The position numbers and the translations under genes were made by a program. The notes beneath the pieces are model-generated. The model was not told the origin of the DNA and did not search any database. It saw only the letters and a list, made by a program, of their open reading frames with translations. This document shows, one piece after another, positions 12,949 through 27,189 of a stretch of DNA of 33,460 nt. The stretch covers positions 1 to 33,460 of the forward strand of contig JAEEVK010000024.1 of NCBI GenBank assembly GCA_016287095.1, given 5' to 3'. Position 1 is the stretch's first letter, and the number at the start of each line of letters is the position of its first letter. Origin of the DNA: Lachnospiraceae bacterium (GTDB lineage: Bacteria; Bacillota; Clostridia; Lachnospirales; Lachnospiraceae).

Positions 12949-12983
12949 ACAGTCTTGGGTTGAAATACAATATTCGTTGTTTT

Positions 12984-12998
12984 TCAACGGAGCGTTGA
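12984..12998. promoter_or_regulatory. Dyad operator O1 upstream of the XRE gene
   Basis: TCAAC-GGAGC-GTTGA, a 5-5-5 perfect inverted repeat ending one base before the -35 box of the XRE gene promoter. The same arrangement (O3) occurs before the gene at 13766, and another dyad (O2) between them. Likely binding site of the neighbouring XRE regulator (inference). Confidence 0.6.
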
Positions 12999-13027
12999 AT
13001 GACAAATAGAAAATTATGTGGTATAAT
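12999..13027 (+). promoter_or_regulatory. Promoter of the XRE regulator gene
   Basis: ATGACA (12999-13004), 17 bases, TATAAT (13022-13027). Same -35 and same spacing as the promoter at 13683-13711. Confidence 0.7.
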
Positions 13028-13091: not shown

Positions 13092-13523
13092 ATGAGGGAT
13101 TTTATTTTACATCTAGCAGACGGATGCTGTGGAATTGATATTGAAGCCACAAGTAAACGCATCGGTAGTCTAATAGAAAGAAGCGGGCTAAATGATAAAG
13201 AACTTAGTGAGAGAATGAACGTATCAGTCCAAGCTATTAATAAATGGCGTCATGGAAAAGGTTTCCCAGACATAGAAAACCTTTGTATATTAAGCAGAAT
13301 ACTTGGATACACAGTTGATGATTTGCTTGTATTTCAATGGAAAGACAGAATAATACTGGATATTACTTTGGAAGAAAGAAAAAAGGCATACTTGGTATCA
13401 GAGATAATGAGAAAGTACTATTTTATGATAGCCGCTATTGTGCATTCATATAATAACGGACTAAGTGGAAAACAAGGATTTAAGTTGAAGCCGGAAATAC
13501 TCGCCGGAAATAATATTTCATAA
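13092..13523 (+). CDS. XRE/Cro-family helix-turn-helix regulator
   Basis: A 143-residue DNA-binding protein. Residues about 22-77 form a typical XRE HTH ('LIERSGLNDKELSERMNVS' then 'QAINKWRHGKGFPDIENLCI' and 'LSRILGYTVDDLLVF'). The C-terminal part ('LEERKKAYLVSEIMRKYYF') is helical and of unknown function, perhaps dimerising or sensing. AAGGAGG (13076-13082) precedes the ATG. A perfect TCAAC-N5-GTTGA dyad lies against its own -35 box and a near-identical module precedes the next gene, so it probably controls itself and the downstream coiled-coil/RNA ligase genes. Codons are AT-richer than in the flanking repair and secretion genes, in line with an accessory origin. It ends just before a terminator stem that resembles the one after uvrA. 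Confidence 0.85.
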   Translation: MRDFILHLADGCCGIDIEATSKRIGSLIERSGLNDKELSERMNVSVQAINKWRHGKGFPDIENLCILSRILGYTVDDLLVFQWKDRIILDITLEERKKAYLVSEIMRKYYFMIAAIVHSYNNGLSGKQGFKLKPEILAGNNIS

Positions 13524-13527
13524 ATAC

Positions 13528-13564
13528 AAACCCCGTCCTAAGAGAACTCATAGGACGGGGTTTT
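13528..13564. terminator. Terminator after the XRE gene, near-copy of the uvrA terminator
   Basis: AAACCCCGTCCTA (13528-13540) pairs with TAGGACGGGGTTT (13551-13563), with a T-run on the plus strand. The CCCGTCC/GGACGGG core is shared with 12038-12076, and both are followed by the same FliD-like 3' end sequence, indicating common descent by duplication. Confidence 0.85.
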
Positions 13565-13565
13565 G

Positions 13566-13589
13566 CATCCACACACTAAAACATGACTG
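13566..13589 (-). pseudogene. Remnant of a duplicated FliD-like gene 3' end
   Basis: Twenty-three of 24 bases match the 3' end of the FliD-like gene at 12097-12120. On the minus strand the segment would read through the equivalent of residues SCFSVWM, but the stop codon TAA has become CAA. Nothing else of the gene's body remains. Together with the duplicated terminator and promoter module, it marks a tandem duplication followed by deletion. Confidence 0.6.
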
Positions 13590-13615
13590 TACAAACTATG
13601 GATTTCTGCCACTTT

Positions 13616-13630
13616 TCAACGCTGAGTTGA
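13616..13630. promoter_or_regulatory. Dyad operator O2
   Basis: TCAAC-GCTGA-GTTGA, a perfect 5-5-5 inverted repeat 53 bases upstream of the -35 box of the coiled-coil gene. Same half-sites and spacing as O1. Confidence 0.55.
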
Positions 13631-13667
13631 AAATACGGCATTTTAGCAGCCTGTCAAACATGTTTTT

Positions 13668-13682
13668 TCAACTAAGCGTTAA
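13668..13682. promoter_or_regulatory. Dyad operator O3 upstream of the coiled-coil gene
   Basis: TCAAC-TAAGC-GTTAA: the O1 dyad with one changed base in the right half-site, ending one base before the -35 box exactly as O1 does. Predicted site for co-regulation with the XRE gene. Confidence 0.55.
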
Positions 13683-13711
13683 ATGACAAAAAATAGGAAC
13701 TGTGCTATAGT
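13683..13711 (+). promoter_or_regulatory. Promoter of the coiled-coil / RNA ligase genes
   Basis: ATGACA (13683-13688), 17 bases, TATAGT (13706-13711), giving a start near 13718 and a leader of about 48 bases before the ATG at 13766. Confidence 0.65.
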
Positions 13712-13765
13712 GGTTTGGCCAAGGGAAAAGGCAGTTTTAAATATGTCATAAGGAGGACAGATGAA

Positions 13766-14425
13766 ATGTCAGAGAAAATGTTAGTAACACAGGCTTTGGA
13801 TGAAAGGGACCTTCTTGTTAAAAAGATAAATGACAAGATTCAAAAAATGCAAGTGGTTGATACAAAGAAACATAATGAAATAAAAACTATAACAACACAT
13901 GTAAGTGTAGAGGAATTTGGTGATAATGCAATGTCAGCATATCAACAGATATTGGACCTGATTGACCGTTATCAGCGCATAGATGCAGCTATAGTTGCCT
14001 CTAATGCTTCGACAATGATCAAAACAAGTTATGGAGAGTATACTGTCGCAGGAGCTATAGCATTGAGAAACCGCTTAAAAGATAGCGGTATATATGATGA
14101 CAAGGCAGATTTTGAGGGACTACTTATAAAGCGTATGGAACATCAGTATAATATTAGTGTTGAATATGCAGAAAGCAAGAACAAAATGCTTGAGACACAG
14201 GCTGAAACCATGCGATTGAGTATTTTAGGAAAAGATAGTAAAGTAAAGGATGCAAAGCCACTTGAAGTGGTGGATGCATATATCAAGGAGAATACCACTG
14301 AAATTATTGATCCGCTTGAAAGTCAGAAGAAGGCACAGGAACTTAAAGAGAAGAAGGATGTGCTTTTAAGCGAATTGGACACTCAAATAAAGGTAAGTAA
14401 TGCTACAACAATGGTAGAGTTTTAA
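13766..14425 (+). CDS. Helical protein, DIP1984/septicolysin-like (DUF6847-type) by pattern
   Basis: A 219-residue, mostly helical, soluble protein. The first part ('LVTQALDERDLLVKKINDKI', 'YQQILDLIDRYQRIDAAIVA', 'YTVAGAIALRNRLK') follows the pattern I associate with the DIP1984/septicolysin-like family: leading A-L-ER helix, an I-L-DL-I-RI helix with a following NA[ST]-T, then a G-x-[YT]-T-[VL]-A-x-A-x-x-R motif. The last 60 residues are charged and probably coiled coil. The family has no firmly established activity. Start at 13766 follows AGGAGG (13751-13756); 13761 is out of frame and 13715 precedes the likely transcription start. It shares an operator/promoter module with the XRE gene and lies upstream of the tRNA-like RNA and RNA ligase, so a role in the same cassette is likely but unproven. 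Confidence 0.55.
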   Translation: MSEKMLVTQALDERDLLVKKINDKIQKMQVVDTKKHNEIKTITTHVSVEEFGDNAMSAYQQILDLIDRYQRIDAAIVASNASTMIKTSYGEYTVAGAIALRNRLKDSGIYDDKADFEGLLIKRMEHQYNISVEYAESKNKMLETQAETMRLSILGKDSKVKDAKPLEVVDAYIKENTTEIIDPLESQKKAQELKEKKDVLLSELDTQIKVSNATTMVEF

Positions 14426-14453
14426 GAAATTGGCCTGCCATATGAAAGCCCTA

Positions 14454-14538
14454 AACCCGCTTTCCCTGCAGAGGGGTTATTCTGCTACTTGGTTGCCCGT
14501 CACCCCAGAACGGGCTCATTAAGGCTCAGAGTAGAGCC
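14454..14538 (+). ncRNA. Structured RNA segment: three hairpins and a possible pseudoknot
   Basis: Within the 428-base non-coding stretch 14426-14853, three helices lie one after another: GCAGA/TCTGC (14468-14472 with 14481-14485, loop GGGGTTAT), GCCCGT/ACGGGC (14495-14500 with 14510-14515) and GGCTC/GAGCC (14523-14527 with 14534-14538). The GGGTT in the first loop can pair with AACCC at 14454-14458, forming an H-type pseudoknot. The segment is GC-richer than the genes around it and has no open reading frame of note. It leads directly into the tRNA-like fold. Boundaries and transcription are unknown. Confidence 0.45.
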
Positions 14539-14549
14539 ACTACAAGCCG

Positions 14550-14622
14550 TTAACAGTAGTTCAGTGGATTGAACACATGACCGGAAATCATGAGGACGCA
14601 GGTTCAAATCCTGTCTGTGATG
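14550..14622 (+). ncRNA. tRNA-like RNA beside an RNA ligase gene (possible tRNA pseudogene or decoy)
   Basis: The sequence folds as a full cloverleaf: acceptor strands TTAACAG and CTGTGAT (5 of 7 pairs), TA at positions 8-9, D-arm GTTC/GAAC with GG in the loop, anticodon stem CATGA/TCATG (5 of 5), loop CCGGAAA, variable loop AGGAC, T-arm GCAGG/CCTGT with loop TTCAAAT, discriminator G. The three arms are well kept, the acceptor stem is not, and position 33 is C instead of the near-universal U. The nominal anticodon GGA means serine, but the short variable loop is not that of a serine tRNA. No CCA is encoded. It is therefore unlikely to be a working decoding tRNA; it may be a decoy, a substrate for the nearby ligase, an attachment-site remnant or a decaying tRNA gene. 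Confidence 0.55.
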
Positions 14623-14735
14623 AAAATGGCAGATAAAAGCTACTTAACTGTTTTATGTGAATTGTCTTTTATGAACCAGGAAATGTCATTTGTCAAAAAG
14701 GATCAACGGTAATAAGACAATGGACAACGGATAAG

Positions 14736-14806
14736 CAGGCATGGTAAACATGCTGAAATCCATGAGAATGGTTTGGTGATAAAGCGGTTGACCGAGGGTT
14801 ATCCAC
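14736..14806 (+). promoter_or_regulatory. Structured leader of the RNA ligase gene (three hairpins)
   Basis: Three hairpins precede the ligase: CAG(g)CATG/CATGCTG (14736-14743 with 14749-14755), CCAT-GAGA-ATGG with a GNRA-type loop (14760-14771), and GTGATAA/TTATCCAC with one bulge (14776-14782 with 14799-14806) enclosing CGG-TTGA-CCG. Further upstream ATTGTCTT and AAGACAAT can also pair. The remaining bases of 14623-14735 show no gene and no convincing promoter. Could be a 5' leader with regulatory structure or part of a larger non-coding RNA. Confidence 0.35.
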
Positions 14807-14853
14807 ATGGCTGTATGGCAGGCATTTTTTATAGAAAGAGTAAGGTGAGAATA

Positions 14854-15897
14854 ATGAGCAGAAAATTAGCAAGTATACAGAAAATAATTAGCATTGAACC
14901 TATAGAAGGTGCGGATCGTATAGAATTGGCGCATGTTCTTGGTTGGCAGTGTGTGGTCAACAAGGGGCAGTTTAAACCAGAGGATATGGCAGTTTATTTT
15001 GAAATAGACAGTTTTCTGCCGATTAGACCTGAGTATGAATTTCTTAGGGCATCAAGTTATAAGAAGAGCGATGTTTTGGGAGAAGGATTCCGCTTGCGTA
15101 CTATGAATTTTCGAGGACAAATATCACAGGGACTATTATTGCCGGTCAGCCAGTTTGAGGAGATTGCTGAAGGAGCACAGGTAGGTGATGATGTAACGGA
15201 AATCCTTGGAGTGTGTAAGTGGGAAATTGAAGAAAGAATAACATCAGGTGGGACTGTTATTGGAACTCTACCTAGTGATATACCCCATACAGATGAGACT
15301 AGGGTTCAGGAAAATCCGGAGCTTATAAAGGCATTTTCAGGTCTTGAGTATTATATCAGTACAAAAATGGATGGAAGTTCGCATTCTATAGGAATAGATG
15401 AACATGGGTTCCATGTGACGGGTCACAATTATGAGTTTAAGAATGATGGTTCCAGTGCGTTTTATAACCTTGTAAATGATCGTGGCTATAAGGAGAAAAT
15501 GGAGCAATATATTACGGAGCAGGGCATAAAGACATTGACTATACAGGGAGAGTTATGTGCACCCGGTATACAGAAGAACCGCCTGAGATTAAAGAAACCT
15601 GAGTGGTATGTATTTACTGTCAGGGTAGATGGAAAGCGTGTGGGATTAAACAGAATGCTTGAGATATGTAAGAAGCTGAATATGACTTCTGTTCCTATTG
15701 AAGAGGTGGGAACAGATTTGCCCTTGAAGTATCCAACGGTTGAATCATTACTTAAAAGAGCTGATGGTGATTATCCTAATGGTGGAAAGAAAGAGGGCAT
15801 TGTTATAAGACCAACTGAACCGGTATTCTGTAGTCTTATATCAGCAGCACTTTCGATGAAGGTTGTTAGTAACAAATACTTGTTGAAAAATGAGTAA
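14854..15897 (+). CDS. ATP-dependent RNA ligase with N-terminal OB-like domain (Rnl5/DraRnl type)
   Basis: A 347-residue nucleotidyltransferase that would seal 3'-OH/5'-phosphate RNA ends through an AMP-lysine intermediate. Residues 1-120 ('RKLASIQKIISIEPIEGADR', 'VVNKGQFKPEDMAVYFEIDS') match the OB-like N-terminal module known from the Deinococcus DraRnl group. The catalytic half shows motif I K171-M-D-G174, motif III region G232-E-L, motif IV E314-G-I-V-I-R319 and motif V S334-M-K336 followed by SNKYL. All key residues are present. Start at 14854 follows AAGGTGAG; an in-frame upstream ATG at 14773 would add 27 residues encoded by the structured leader and has no family support. Immediate neighbours are the tRNA-like RNA upstream and a small membrane protein gene 25 bases downstream. 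The substrate is unknown; RNA repair after an RNase-type toxin or phage attack is a reasonable inference. Confidence 0.85.
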   Translation: MSRKLASIQKIISIEPIEGADRIELAHVLGWQCVVNKGQFKPEDMAVYFEIDSFLPIRPEYEFLRASSYKKSDVLGEGFRLRTMNFRGQISQGLLLPVSQFEEIAEGAQVGDDVTEILGVCKWEIEERITSGGTVIGTLPSDIPHTDETRVQENPELIKAFSGLEYYISTKMDGSSHSIGIDEHGFHVTGHNYEFKNDGSSAFYNLVNDRGYKEKMEQYITEQGIKTLTIQGELCAPGIQKNRLRLKKPEWYVFTVRVDGKRVGLNRMLEICKKLNMTSVPIEEVGTDLPLKYPTVESLLKRADGDYPNGGKKEGIVIRPTEPVFCSLISAALSMKVVSNKYLLKNE

Positions 15898-15922
15898 AAG
15901 AAGATTAGCAGGGGTGGATATA

Positions 15923-16144
15923 ATGAGGAAGATATTCGATATAGGAATGTTGATAGGTTGGTCGATCATCGGCATCATTTGCCTGGTTACAGAACATAAG
16001 CCTACGAAAATGGAATATGCATGCATATGGGTTTGTTATCTGGCTGAACTGGGCATAAAAGTGTTTACTAATCGTTATGATGATAATGACAACAACCAAA
16101 ATAATCATAACTTTAGAAACAATAACAAAATGCTGTCAGTTTAA
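15923..16144 (+). CDS. Small membrane protein of unknown function
   Basis: A 73-residue protein with a hydrophobic segment at about residues 5-24 ('IGMLIGWSIIGIICLVTE'), a second, weaker one ('YACIWVCYLAELGIKVF') and an Asn-rich, polar end. AGGGGTGG (15909-15916) supports the ATG at 15923; an upstream ATG at 15890 overlaps the stop of the ligase gene and would permit coupled translation with 11 more residues. Not recognised. Position directly behind the ligase suggests co-transcription. Confidence 0.55.
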   Translation: MRKIFDIGMLIGWSIIGIICLVTEHKPTKMEYACIWVCYLAELGIKVFTNRYDDNDNNQNNHNFRNNNKMLSV

Positions 16145-16160
16145 AAGAGGATAGATAATT

Positions 16161-16592
16161 ATGGGCACTCGTAGTACTATAAGGTTTATTGAAAAGTATG
16201 AAAATAGAGAAACACAGTTAGTAAATATTTACCAACAATTTGATGGCTATATTGAAGGTGTTGGATATGAATTGGCTAAGTGGTTAATAAATAAAACTAT
16301 AGTTAATGGATTTGTCAGCAATGACGAGAAAAACAATGCCAATGGAATAGGATGTTTAGCTGCACAGTTTATAAAAGATTTTAAAAAGCATATTGGCGGA
16401 TTATATATTGTTGGCTCAACCAACGCACAAGAATATAATTATGATGTGATAATTGATGCGAGGCAAATCGGAAGGGTTAATGATATAGCATTAATCAGAA
16501 TATCCAAATATGATGAGAAAGCCCCTGTTTTTATCGGAAGACCAAGTGAGCTTTTAACTTTTAAAGAACCTGAGGATGATGATGCTGCATAA
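16161..16592 (+). CDS. Conserved 'MGTRST' protein of unknown function
   Basis: A 143-residue soluble protein beginning MGTRSTIRFIE and containing 'IYQQFDGYIEGVGYELAKWL'. This start and the YQQ-DGY-xxGxG-x-LA pattern recur in a family of unknown function that I associate with phages and accessory bacterial loci (recalled, not searched). The remainder is an alpha/beta-like sequence ending in an acidic tail. GAGGAT lies 8 bases upstream of the ATG. It is the third gene behind the RNA ligase with only short gaps between, so it may belong to the same transcript. AT-rich codon use matches the ligase and not the flanking housekeeping genes. Confidence 0.6.
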   Translation: MGTRSTIRFIEKYENRETQLVNIYQQFDGYIEGVGYELAKWLINKTIVNGFVSNDEKNNANGIGCLAAQFIKDFKKHIGGLYIVGSTNAQEYNYDVIIDARQIGRVNDIALIRISKYDEKAPVFIGRPSELLTFKEPEDDDAA

Positions 16593-25275: not shown

Positions 25276-27189
25276 GTGAAAAAGAGGATCGCGGTTTTTG
25301 CAAACGGATGGAATGCTGAAAACCTGTCTAATTTCATGATGGGCCTTGAGAAAAGCGCAAAACCGGAAAGCATGGATTTCTTTGTTTTCCTGAGCTTTGC
25401 CTCATATGGATATAATGAACTCAATAGAAAAGCCGAAGCACTGGTTTATGAACTTCCTGATTTGAAGTCTTTTGACGCACTTATCATCTTCGGACCCGGT
25501 CTTAACTTTCAGGATGTTATAGAAAAGATCCAGAAAATGGCAGATGAAGCAGGTATACCTGTAATCAGCATAGGTTTGAAGCACCCTGGGCATTATTTCA
25601 TAGGTGCTGATAACTATGTCGGCATGAAAGAGCTTGTCGATCATATGATAGAAAAGCATGACTGTAAGAAACTGATGTTCATTGCCGGATCTAAAGAAAA
25701 TGATGACTCAAATGTAAGACTGAAGGCTATCAAGGATTCCATGAAGGAACACAAGCTTAAGTTTGGCGAAAGTGATGTTTTCTACTCTGAATGGGAATCA
25801 AGAAGAGCGATGGATCATATCCGTCAGACTTATAAGACACCTGCGGATTTCCCTGATGCTTTCCTGTGTGCAAACGACGGTTTGGCACTTGCTGCGAGCC
25901 AGCTAATGGAGGCTTATTATCATTTAAAGCCCACTGATGTTAAAATTTGCGGTTTTGATCATCTTGATCAGAGCATGATCTACTATCCTTCTGTGACTAC
26001 AGTAGATCAGGAGTATATTACTATCGGAAAGAAAGCAAACGAGATACTTGGAAAGGTATTTGCAGGCAAAAAGACCAAAGATAATGTACTTGTTCCGTGT
26101 AAGTGTGTGATCGGCGAAAGCTGTGGCTGCGGATACAGCAGAAAAGCCATGATGGAAAGAAAACACTTCATCAGACGTCAGCAGCTTGAGGAAAGGTTTG
26201 CTTCCAATAAAGAGGGAAGGCTTTTTGTACTGGAAAAAGCTATTTTCCAAGGTCAGAGTTTTGATGCTGTAAAGAAAAATGTTAGGACTCTTGTGTATGA
26301 GAGTGCCGGTTCTGAGGGTGATACCTTCTATATCTTGTTTGATCCTGTGATGGAGAAAATAGGTGAAAAGGAGGAGTCATTGCTTCCGAGATTTTCTCTT
26401 GACAGAGAGTATCTTGTAGTTTGCGGTAAGAAAGATAAGATACCGGTTGAATCTGAGAGGGTTAATCGCACTGAGATCATTCCGGATTATAAGGGGACCG
26501 GTGCCAACACTATTTATCTTATAGGCAATCTTCATTATGAAGATCTGATGTGCGGCTATTTCGCAATGGGGATAAACGCAAAGAATATCAGAAGTACTGA
26601 TTTTGCCAATTATCAGACACGACTTGACAGGGCATTCTTCCCGTATATTAAAAACCTGCAGCTTGTTACACTTAACAAAAAGCTGGCAGATCTTATGGAA
26701 CAGGATTCGCTCACACATGTTAAAAACAGGACAGCTTATGATAAATATATCAGAAACTTCCAGAAACAGGTTTTATCCGGTGAAAGAAAAGAGTATGCTA
26801 TAGCATATTTTGATGTAAATGATCTTAAGGTTATAAATGATAAATACGGTCATGAGGCCGGCGATGCATATATCAGAAATTCATGTAAGCTGATCTGTGA
26901 CACGTTTAAGCACAGTCCCGTATTCCGTATAGGCGGAGATGAGTTCCTGAGCATTGTTATAAACGATGACTTTAAGAACAGAGATGAATTGCTCGAAGGC
27001 ATGAAGGCAGAGATGGAAAGAAGAAAGCAGGAGCGTGAGAAGTATTCTCCGGCTGCTATAGTTTCCGTTGCATCCGGTATGGCGGTTTATGATCCTAATA
27101 CAGATACGGATATCATGACTGTGGTAAACAGGGCTGACGTGCATATGTACGAGGATAAAGCCAGGATGAAGAAGGGCAATATCAGATAA
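25276..27189 (+). CDS. Diguanylate cyclase with periplasmic-binding-like (LacI-type) sensor domain
   Basis: A 637-residue soluble protein. Residues 1-285 resemble the sugar-binding half of LacI-type regulators ('ALIIFGPGLNFQDVI', 'IPVISIGLKHPGHYFIGADN', 'DAFLCANDGLALAASQLM', 'VKICGFDHLDQSMIYYPSVT') but without the HTH; a short Cys segment 'ESCGCGY' follows, then a middle region and a GGDEF cyclase ('IAYFDVNDLKVINDKYGHEA', GGDEF at 553-557). The active-site motif is intact. The inhibitory RxxD site normally just before GGDEF is not there ('KHSPVFRIGGDEF'), so product inhibition at that site is probably lost. No membrane segment or signal peptide, so it senses an intracellular ligand, perhaps a sugar. 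The GTG at 25276 follows AGGAAGG with good spacing; GTG at 25267 overlaps the site. Confidence 0.87.
   Translation: MKKRIAVFANGWNAENLSNFMMGLEKSAKPESMDFFVFLSFASYGYNELNRKAEALVYELPDLKSFDALIIFGPGLNFQDVIEKIQKMADEAGIPVISIGLKHPGHYFIGADNYVGMKELVDHMIEKHDCKKLMFIAGSKENDDSNVRLKAIKDSMKEHKLKFGESDVFYSEWESRRAMDHIRQTYKTPADFPDAFLCANDGLALAASQLMEAYYHLKPTDVKICGFDHLDQSMIYYPSVTTVDQEYITIGKKANEILGKVFAGKKTKDNVLVPCKCVIGESCGCGYSRKAMMERKHFIRRQQLEERFASNKEGRLFVLEKAIFQGQSFDAVKKNVRTLVYESAGSEGDTFYILFDPVMEKIGEKEESLLPRFSLDREYLVVCGKKDKIPVESERVNRTEIIPDYKGTGANTIYLIGNLHYEDLMCGYFAMGINAKNIRSTDFANYQTRLDRAFFPYIKNLQLVTLNKKLADLMEQDSLTHVKNRTAYDKYIRNFQKQVLSGERKEYAIAYFDVNDLKVINDKYGHEAGDAYIRNSCKLICDTFKHSPVFRIGGDEFLSIVINDDFKNRDELLEGMKAEMERRKQEREKYSPAAIVSVASGMAVYDPNTDTDIMTVVNRADVHMYEDKARMKKGNIR

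Follow-up and report, generated by a model that had tools for sequence, protein, structure and literature searches.

Which of the genes that follow uvrA on a contig of a Lachnospiraceae bacterium form a functional unit? The window, the whole 33,460-nucleotide (nt) stretch of DNA that we analyzed, is one 33-kb contig (JAEEVK010000024.1) from a 3.39-Mb draft genome. 3′ of uvrA, its plus strand carries in order an XRE regulator gene, a gene for a DIP1984-like protein, a 428-nt gap, an RNA ligase gene and the genes for a putative membrane protein and an MGTRST protein. An initial annotation had read this arrangement, whose gene order, strands and gap were as described there, as a six-part cassette that would repair, protect or decoy tRNA. 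We found that the conserved core is the gene of a DIP1984-fold protein, predicted to be a coiled coil, together with a structured RNA directly 3′ of it on the same strand, and that this unit occurs on plasmids, on bacterial chromosomes and in large phages, where it often lies among tRNA genes. We dropped the idea of a single six-part system after comparing neighborhoods in 79 ligase loci and 397 genomes: the DIP1984-like gene was found mostly without the ligase, and the membrane-protein and MGTRST genes were found in 0 of 100 other loci searched at E 1e-4.

The RNA was scored by a GGCTG junction (with a few variants accepted) and, after it, a strand complementary to the region 3′ of the stop codon. 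Once identical and short regions were dropped, 139 matching frames yielded 107 distinct downstream regions, in 89 of which the RNA was detected above the 99th percentile of shuffled sequence (29/30 regions of Clostridia type and 60/77 others). These 89 RNAs are 231-484 nt long (median 362; the middle 90% span 298-441 nt) and begin a median of 13 nt past the stop codon's first base; on its inner side the 5′ strand ends in CG (75 RNAs) or TG (14). Because a protein or ligase match decided which loci entered the analysis, and the search for the RNA covered only the downstream region of the same strand, linkage was tested one way, from protein to RNA. Later analyses used the 92 of the 107 regions that scored at least 9.5, 75 of them taken as representatives, and sets of our own choosing: 17 loci for the tRNA and Rfam scan, 22 RNAs (set A3) and 52 proteins (set A2). 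A reverse blastn search of 260 genomes with the RNA of locus L112 matched 132 genomes, mostly through the tRNA-like part alone; among the matches listed, the RNA continued past that part in at least nine genomes, seven with the protein and two without an intact one. This search was low in sensitivity, because the window RNA escaped it, as did three genomes that encode the protein (two of these only as fragments).

DIP1984-like proteins were detected in 19/397 genomes of the same family (the window genome included), 14/392 of the order and 4/398 of the phylum, and in 11 plasmid records. An alignment-based scan of viral contigs returned 172 relatives, of which 80 were kept, where a scan with a single protein had given no matches. 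Phage records were matched by the window protein in 160 cases and by the Av-05 protein in 701. Phage T5 is among the carriers: T5.085 is a member of the protein family (148 bits), and its RNA occupies 43142-43494 of the complementary strand, flanked by T5.085 and an annotated promoter; the T5 record lists no feature for it. The T5-type RNA is present in 437 phage records, with at least 95% identity in 385. About 1.6 kb further on, at 40848-41566, the same record (AY543070.1) annotates RNAX, a different stable RNA whose function is unknown. Near the unit, 111 tRNA matches were spread over 16 of the 17 chosen loci (a set made up of 16 viral-contig loci and L124), and in Dulem virus 39 RtcB is encoded 2.4 kb 3′ of the unit copy. 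RNAs of the RAGATH-36, drum and int-alpA families also lie near viral copies (L197:2937-3064, L151:1521-1631 and L134:6639-6710, respectively).

The description of the 428-nt gap as a structured noncoding stretch proved correct. The window RNA has a minimum free energy z-score of -3.1, is conserved in relatives, and folds into helices that covary. Its core is an end-closing helix (P1), a pseudoknot and an array phased at 7 nt. Covariation was measured in set A3, which comprises 22 cloverleaf-bearing RNAs among the 30 of Clostridia type (five short forms, two near-duplicates and L118 were excluded) and was aligned with MAFFT without structure input. The joint fold of these RNAs reached -68.4 kcal/mol, with compensatory changes in 34 of 53 predicted pairs. 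When the pseudoknot and the acceptor stem were added by hand, 96.6% of the resulting 61 pairs were standard, and two-sided changes occurred in 41 of them vs. 26.9 in shuffles. The covariation score was 0.510, vs. 0.230 for shuffled alignments and at most 0.116 when the structure was slid, an advantage over the slid versions that owes something to the structure having been derived from its own test alignment. Thus, the structured RNA exceeds chance because its helices covary. The pseudoknot, CC(AUG)/(CAU)GG, is 100% paired across A3 and varies little there, so its independent support comes from the 75 representatives. It was present in 73/75 of these vs. 4.9% of shuffles under an identical filter, in 72/75 vs. 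1.7% under the strictest filter, and in 75/75 vs. 47.5% without any context filter, and 18 different sequences serve as its 5′ strand in the wider set. Helices P2 and P3 were rejected as a universal feature, as a crude stem test gave p ≤ 1/30 in only 1/27 Clostridia-type RNAs and 11/48 others; they therefore draw their support solely from covariation within the Clostridia group. Mononucleotide shuffles served as the null for the stem and pseudoknot tests, and dinucleotide-preserving shuffles for the array test.

The array was recognized by the phasing of AA dinucleotides. Between 185 and 75 nt before the RNA 3′ end, 48 mostly viral RNAs gave z-scores of 23.7, 20.7 and 13.6 at spacings of 7, 14 and 21 nt, and the equivalent region of 27 Clostridia-type RNAs gave 14.6, 12.5 and 8.7. 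Controls at 7 nt were negative, at z -2.8 in the final 400 nt of the coding sequences (75) and z -2.4 in the 400 nt past the RNA (74). Runs of at least four units, the longest having eight, yielded the consensus G-N-U-Y-A-A-R, in which the AA is fixed by construction. In the window the array is degenerate: in-phase AA occurs at 14646, 14660, 14674, 14681 and 14695 and, after a shift, at 14705, 14719, 14726 and 14733, with three further AA out of phase in the same stretch. Of the functional readings, the one best grounded in structure is that an entity occupying 7 nt, in the most economical case the partner protein, aligns along the array.

A tRNA-like RNA had been predicted within the gap, and the window RNA indeed matches RF00005 at 54.1 bits (cut-off 29) with a tRNA-like cloverleaf. 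Serine tRNAs are marked by a long variable arm and U33. The window insert has neither: its variable loop is 5 nt and its anticodon loop is CCGGAAA, with C33. Functional tRNA-Ser identity was rejected because the variable arm is short and position 33 is C. By ARAGORN or a T-arm signature, an insert is present in 24/30 Clostridia-type RNAs vs. 5/62 others (one of the 24, the short RNA of L115, has the T-arm signature only), and the T5-like and Clostridioides RNAs tested yielded none. Across 22 aligned inserts the D, anticodon and T arms are 94-99% paired, and the triplets at the anticodon position, some read by hand from the loop, vary (gga, gaa, taa, tgg, atg, gat, tct, cgt, tgt, caa, ttt, aat). 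Could the inserts be real tRNA genes, captured in a variable loop and excised by RNase P and RNase Z, with the unit as carrier only? The cloverleaf, a TTCRANT T loop in 21/22 (the exception is L121), NCCA, NCCC or NCCG ends in several, and ARAGORN matches in 22/92 RNAs when that program is taken by itself would all fit such an origin, as would the 80% identity over 49 nt that the L112 insert shows to sequences in many genomes of the family that are probably tRNA genes. However, inserts of Ser and Leu type have no long variable arm, the window insert has C33, the acceptor stem is just 83.8% paired, and the window insert is more similar to other inserts (0.75) than to the best tRNA among 30 loci of its own genome (0.69). 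We consider this origin very improbable. Because length varies in the 5′ half of the RNA, we read that half as a payload site.

The ligase next to the RNA is a separate, loosely linked module outside the conserved unit. The initial annotation had credited it with all catalytic motifs. Both domains were identified (PF21189, the PHA02142 OB domain, 2.8e-36; PF09414, RNA_ligase, 1.1e-14), the score against TIGR02306 was 150.0 bits for a cut-off of 151.15, and the Naegleria gruberi RNA ligase was matched in the PDB at 2.7e-51. In alignment with the latter, the K-x-D-G, EGIV and SxK..SN stretches, which are catalytic motifs, are kept or nearly kept; the motif check covers these stretches. By tblastn, a DIP-like gene is present in 7/79 ligase loci (L026, L035, L037, L052, L072, L083 and L095), and in all seven a tRNA-like or structured stretch lies 3′ of it, whichever side the ligase occupies. 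The 3′ core of the RNA, belonging to a whole RNA or a remnant, was found near the ligase in 9/79 loci, L072 and L095 being near-identical.

These data bear on a strict version of the first proposal, in which one regulated RNA-repair operon has a ligase acting on the tRNA-like RNA. The order protein, RNA, ligase, with the RNA directly 5′ of the ligase, recurs in L026 and L052, where the predicted association stood up; the nine loci with the RNA core, two ligase genomes of the family sample that hold the RNA with the protein gene truncated or absent (G135 and G288), and the frequency of phosphoesterase genes in ligase loci also speak for it. Clusters of 23, 10 and 6 loci include calcineurin-like phosphoesterase members (3/4 tested members match). 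Against it, the core was not found in 70/79 ligase loci within the flanks examined, some of them short, no ligase lies within the flanking 1.5 kb of the L103-L121 protein genes, and the two genes share only the window genome among the 397 of the family. We regard this version as improbable. The ligase and the RNA seem to come together at a higher rate than expected from how rare each is, as shuffled modules and not in a fixed operon; the elements are related. Among other neighbors, a short XRE-like gene from a single protein cluster is present in 32 of the 79 ligase loci plus window, L039 encodes RtcB, and L012 has a partial RNA copy directly 3′ of the ligase. In L065, a Thg1-type tRNA guanylyltransferase gene (PF04446; 7046-7801) lies between the ligase and a DIP-like gene remnant with a complete RNA, and a phosphoesterase-like frame is also present.

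The protein half of the unit matches phrog_1491 over residues 1-219 (E 4.2e-33). For the DIP1984-like label, the fold evidence held and the profile evidence was thin: the window protein has no Pfam or NCBIfam match (PF20935 included), and 4/52 relatives touch Pfam DUF6847 (PF20935) weakly (best E 0.0033). A PDB sequence search gave no relative better than E 0.06. The AlphaFold2 model is helical, a coiled coil that includes short strands (mean predicted local distance difference test, pLDDT, 89; predicted template modelling score, pTM, 0.68), and its top PDB fold is 3kdq, a C. diphtheriae protein without a name (probability 1.00, E only 0.012, template modelling scores 0.41/0.57). DIP1984, 3kdq and DUF6847 are one family, and the modeled fold match supports the label though Pfam gives no assignment. 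Members of phrog_1491 are often annotated as tail fiber proteins in phage records, which would hint at a structural role in which the RNA helps to build or package the virion as a scaffold or packaging RNA and would be found in large phages on that account. Many large tailed phages carry the unit, and the copy in Bacillus phage BM15 adjoins genes annotated as tail spike and portal. However, plasmids, some of which are probably phage-plasmids, and bacterial genomes also carry the unit, in the latter next to cellular genes; the genes around it change from phage to phage, with a tRNA array as a frequent setting; and the tail fiber annotation finds no support in the predicted coiled-coil fold. A virion role has little chance of being correct.

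Considering these data together, our best explanation, which we hold tentatively and with somewhat less than even confidence, is that the protein and RNA form a ribonucleoprotein in which protomers sit along the 7-nt array and which mobile elements employ in conflicts over tRNA damage; binding and role are deduced from sequence and comparison. The RNA would be transcribed with, and bound by, its own protein. Its core would provide a specific landing site, from which protomers may align along the array, one per seven nucleotides, to give a small ribonucleoprotein. Less certainly, the mobile element may use the particle to counter attacks by the host on tRNA; the cloverleaf would then act as bait, or as a handle that delivers damaged tRNA to the enzymes repairing it. 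In the window, the unit might be released by an XRE repressor and broken RNA sealed by the neighboring ligase. The role in tRNA conflict is the leading guess, made by association only, because of the 111 tRNA matches and because phages counter host tRNA cleavage with tRNAs and RNA repair (PMC7824862, PMC10264068).

Alternatively, the RNA may be a long 3′ untranslated region, with the protein binding the array and core of its own mRNA to set its level and no role in tRNA damage. The short distance from the stop codon to the RNA start (a median of 13 nt, in a search made downstream on the same strand only) and the T5 promoter annotated right behind the RNA are consistent with this, whereas the length of the RNA, the pseudoknot, the optional cloverleaf and the complete RNAs behind truncated genes in L065 and L319 exceed what autoregulation needs. 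We regard this as rather unlikely.

Several observations weigh against a ribonucleoprotein dedicated to tRNA conflict. Of the 107 downstream regions, 18 fell below the threshold; several of them (L117, L124 and L199) have the GGCTG junction with weaker stems, and others, such as L140, L145 and L152, showed nothing convincing. Some RNAs have no intact protein gene beside them (complete RNAs in L065 and L319, partial ones in L066, L012 and L316), and such copies may be debris or an RNA acting alone. In L065 and L319 the protein gene in front of the complete RNA is reduced to its final codons, with differing upstream genes adjoining, which hints at recombination at the protein-gene end or, again, at independent action. 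Cellular copies have mixed neighbor genes, the array is barely less paired than the remainder (predicted unpaired 0.42 vs. 0.36, 45 RNAs), and the ligase and DIP-like gene rarely co-occur (18 and 19 genomes of the family sample, with the window genome the only one to hold both). A tRNA-mimic role cannot be family-wide, because most other copies lack the insert (5/62 have one).

If the ribonucleoprotein reading is true, it would add a new class of phage ribonucleoprotein, built on a conserved RNA mostly of 300-440 nt that has a fixed partner gene and is unannotated in the T5 record, and would give meaning to hundreds of genes labeled hypothetical or tail fiber. The 7-nt register makes a sharp, testable prediction of assembly mode, with E. 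coli K-12, the classic host, as a convenient setting, and the tRNA-mimic inserts would offer an experimental entry to the counters that mobile elements use against tRNA-cleaving defenses. A broader and still more tentative proposal is that proteins of the DIP1984 fold each pair with a cis-encoded structured RNA and together make up the protein side of a ribonucleoprotein class not yet described, in which the phage branch (T5 included) would have a pseudoknotted core, a 7-nt ruler for protomers and exchangeable payloads (here a tRNA mimic) for the war over tRNA.

How much of this is already known? Rfam covers no more of the unit RNA than the initial 86 nt in some members, catalogued as RAGATH-27 (RF03100), which matched in 3/17 sources (L183:4677-4762, 88.0 bits; L124:3647-3730, 77.2; L134:4642-4723, 76.7) from the P1 5′ strand onward. 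The Rfam model ends after one hairpin, without pseudoknot or array, and the window RNA has no RF03100 match at the gathering score; a known Rfam family for the whole RNA was thus rejected. DIP1984/DUF6847 proteins resemble the window protein by fold match and weak profile link, and a conserved RNA-like element also lies 3′ of their genes, but those proteins are shorter and that element differs (~200 nt, GGCGAGYRC..CUACCA..GYRCUGA..GUGAGGGUGGG). DUF6847 genes are present in 11/149 phylum genomes, and the phage-type RNA was found behind them in 0/12 loci examined, a count that leaves aside one more locus in which the frame was unusable. Their downstream element (L236-L248) has no Rfam match; its stem letters covary by eye, and some copies contain T-arm-like pieces.

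YrlA and the Y RNAs of Ro60 mimic tRNA. The Ro60-Y RNA pairing resembles the unit in that a protein has a neighboring RNA containing a tRNA-like module, and in occurring in RNA-repair neighborhoods and in phages too; the fold differs, and the unit has a pseudoknot and a 7-nt array. ROT/TROVE proteins with a tRNA-like RNA partner have been mentioned (PMC7824862). No YrlA match (RF02553) was obtained in the window RNA, and no TROVE protein among the scanned neighbors. GOLLD and ROOL are phage-associated. They are likewise large structured RNAs (PMC12286853). Neither was matched through Rfam in the window RNA and the relatives scanned, and we know of no 7-nt array or obligatory partner gene for either. 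The window ligase, Rnl5-type in the terms of the initial annotation, is like the Naegleria-type/TIGR02306 ligases in having both domains and close PDB relatives; it neighbors the conserved unit without belonging to it. The protein-RNA pair, RAGATH-27 and the T5 noncoding RNA had no description in the literature searched, which left most subscription journals outside its coverage. A 2016 review by Burroughs and Aravind in Nucleic Acids Research (NAR, gkw722) reportedly includes RNA-repair systems with "a novel tRNA-like molecule" and could be the main route by which the pair might prove partly known.

Table 1. Features of the locus, in window coordinates.
Feature	Position	Strand	Basis or remark
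Palindromic operator-like site TTCAAC..GTTGAA, 5′ of XRE gene	12983-12999		3′ end abuts promoter-like site 12999-13027
XRE/Cro-type regulator	13092-13523	+	HTH_3 match, 1.7e-8
Palindrome copy 5′ of DIP1984-like gene	13615-13631		Sequence comparison
Second palindrome copy 5′ of DIP1984-like gene	13667-13683		3′ end abuts promoter-like site 13683-13711 (ATGACA-17-TATAGT)
DIP1984-fold protein gene, phrog_1491 family, 219 amino acids, predicted helical coiled coil	13766-14425	+	Profile and model
Structured RNA	14433-14823	+	7 nt past DIP1984-like stop codon; P1 closes the ends (14433-14444/14812-14823)
P2	14448-14452/14795-14799	+	5′ strand/partner; covariation, Clostridia-type alignment
P3	14457-14463/14781-14787	+	5′ strand/partner; covariation, Clostridia-type alignment
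P4 hairpin	14468-14485	+	Consensus fold and covariation
tRNA-like cloverleaf insert	14550-14622	+	ARAGORN Ser-gga; short variable loop; 5/7 acceptor pairs
7-nt phased array, degenerate in window	14642-14739	+	AA periodicity
Small conserved 3′ hairpin GGCA..TGCT	14738-14754	+	Consensus fold and covariation
Pseudoknot 5′ strand CCATG	14760-14764	+	Pairs with CATGG 14806-14810
Pseudoknot 3′ strand CATGG	14806-14810	+	Its GG opens the conserved GGCTG junction preceding P1′
T6 run 3′ of structured RNA	14825-14830	+	Read from sequence
ATP-dependent RNA ligase, TIGR02306/Naegleria type	14854-15897	+	Profiles, PDB alignment
Small putative membrane protein	15923-16144	+	No family match in Pfam, NCBIfam and PHROG profile scans
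MGTRST protein	16161-16592	+	Weak phrog_1987 match (E 2.4e-4), profile scan

The remaining features of the locus (Table 1) concern its setting and control. No insertion boundary could be drawn beside uvrA: the sole same-genus genome keeps uvrBA and 0/15 other window genes tested across the 19 kb compared. ARAGORN also called a tRNA-Gln at 25758-25833, within a long coding frame and with no Rfam counterpart, which is probably a false call. The cassette had been described as AT-richer; this holds for its genes (GC content 0.33-0.40 vs. 0.418 for the window) but not for the structured RNA (0.444). The XRE assignment was borne out by the profile match. The promoters are suggestive at most, because 22 promoter-like sites were observed vs. 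15.7 in shuffled sequence; two of the palindrome copies (those at 12983 and 13667) terminate at the -35 box of such a site. The best palindrome pair is identical at 24/27 letters, which agrees with the predicted operator common to the regulator and the second gene.

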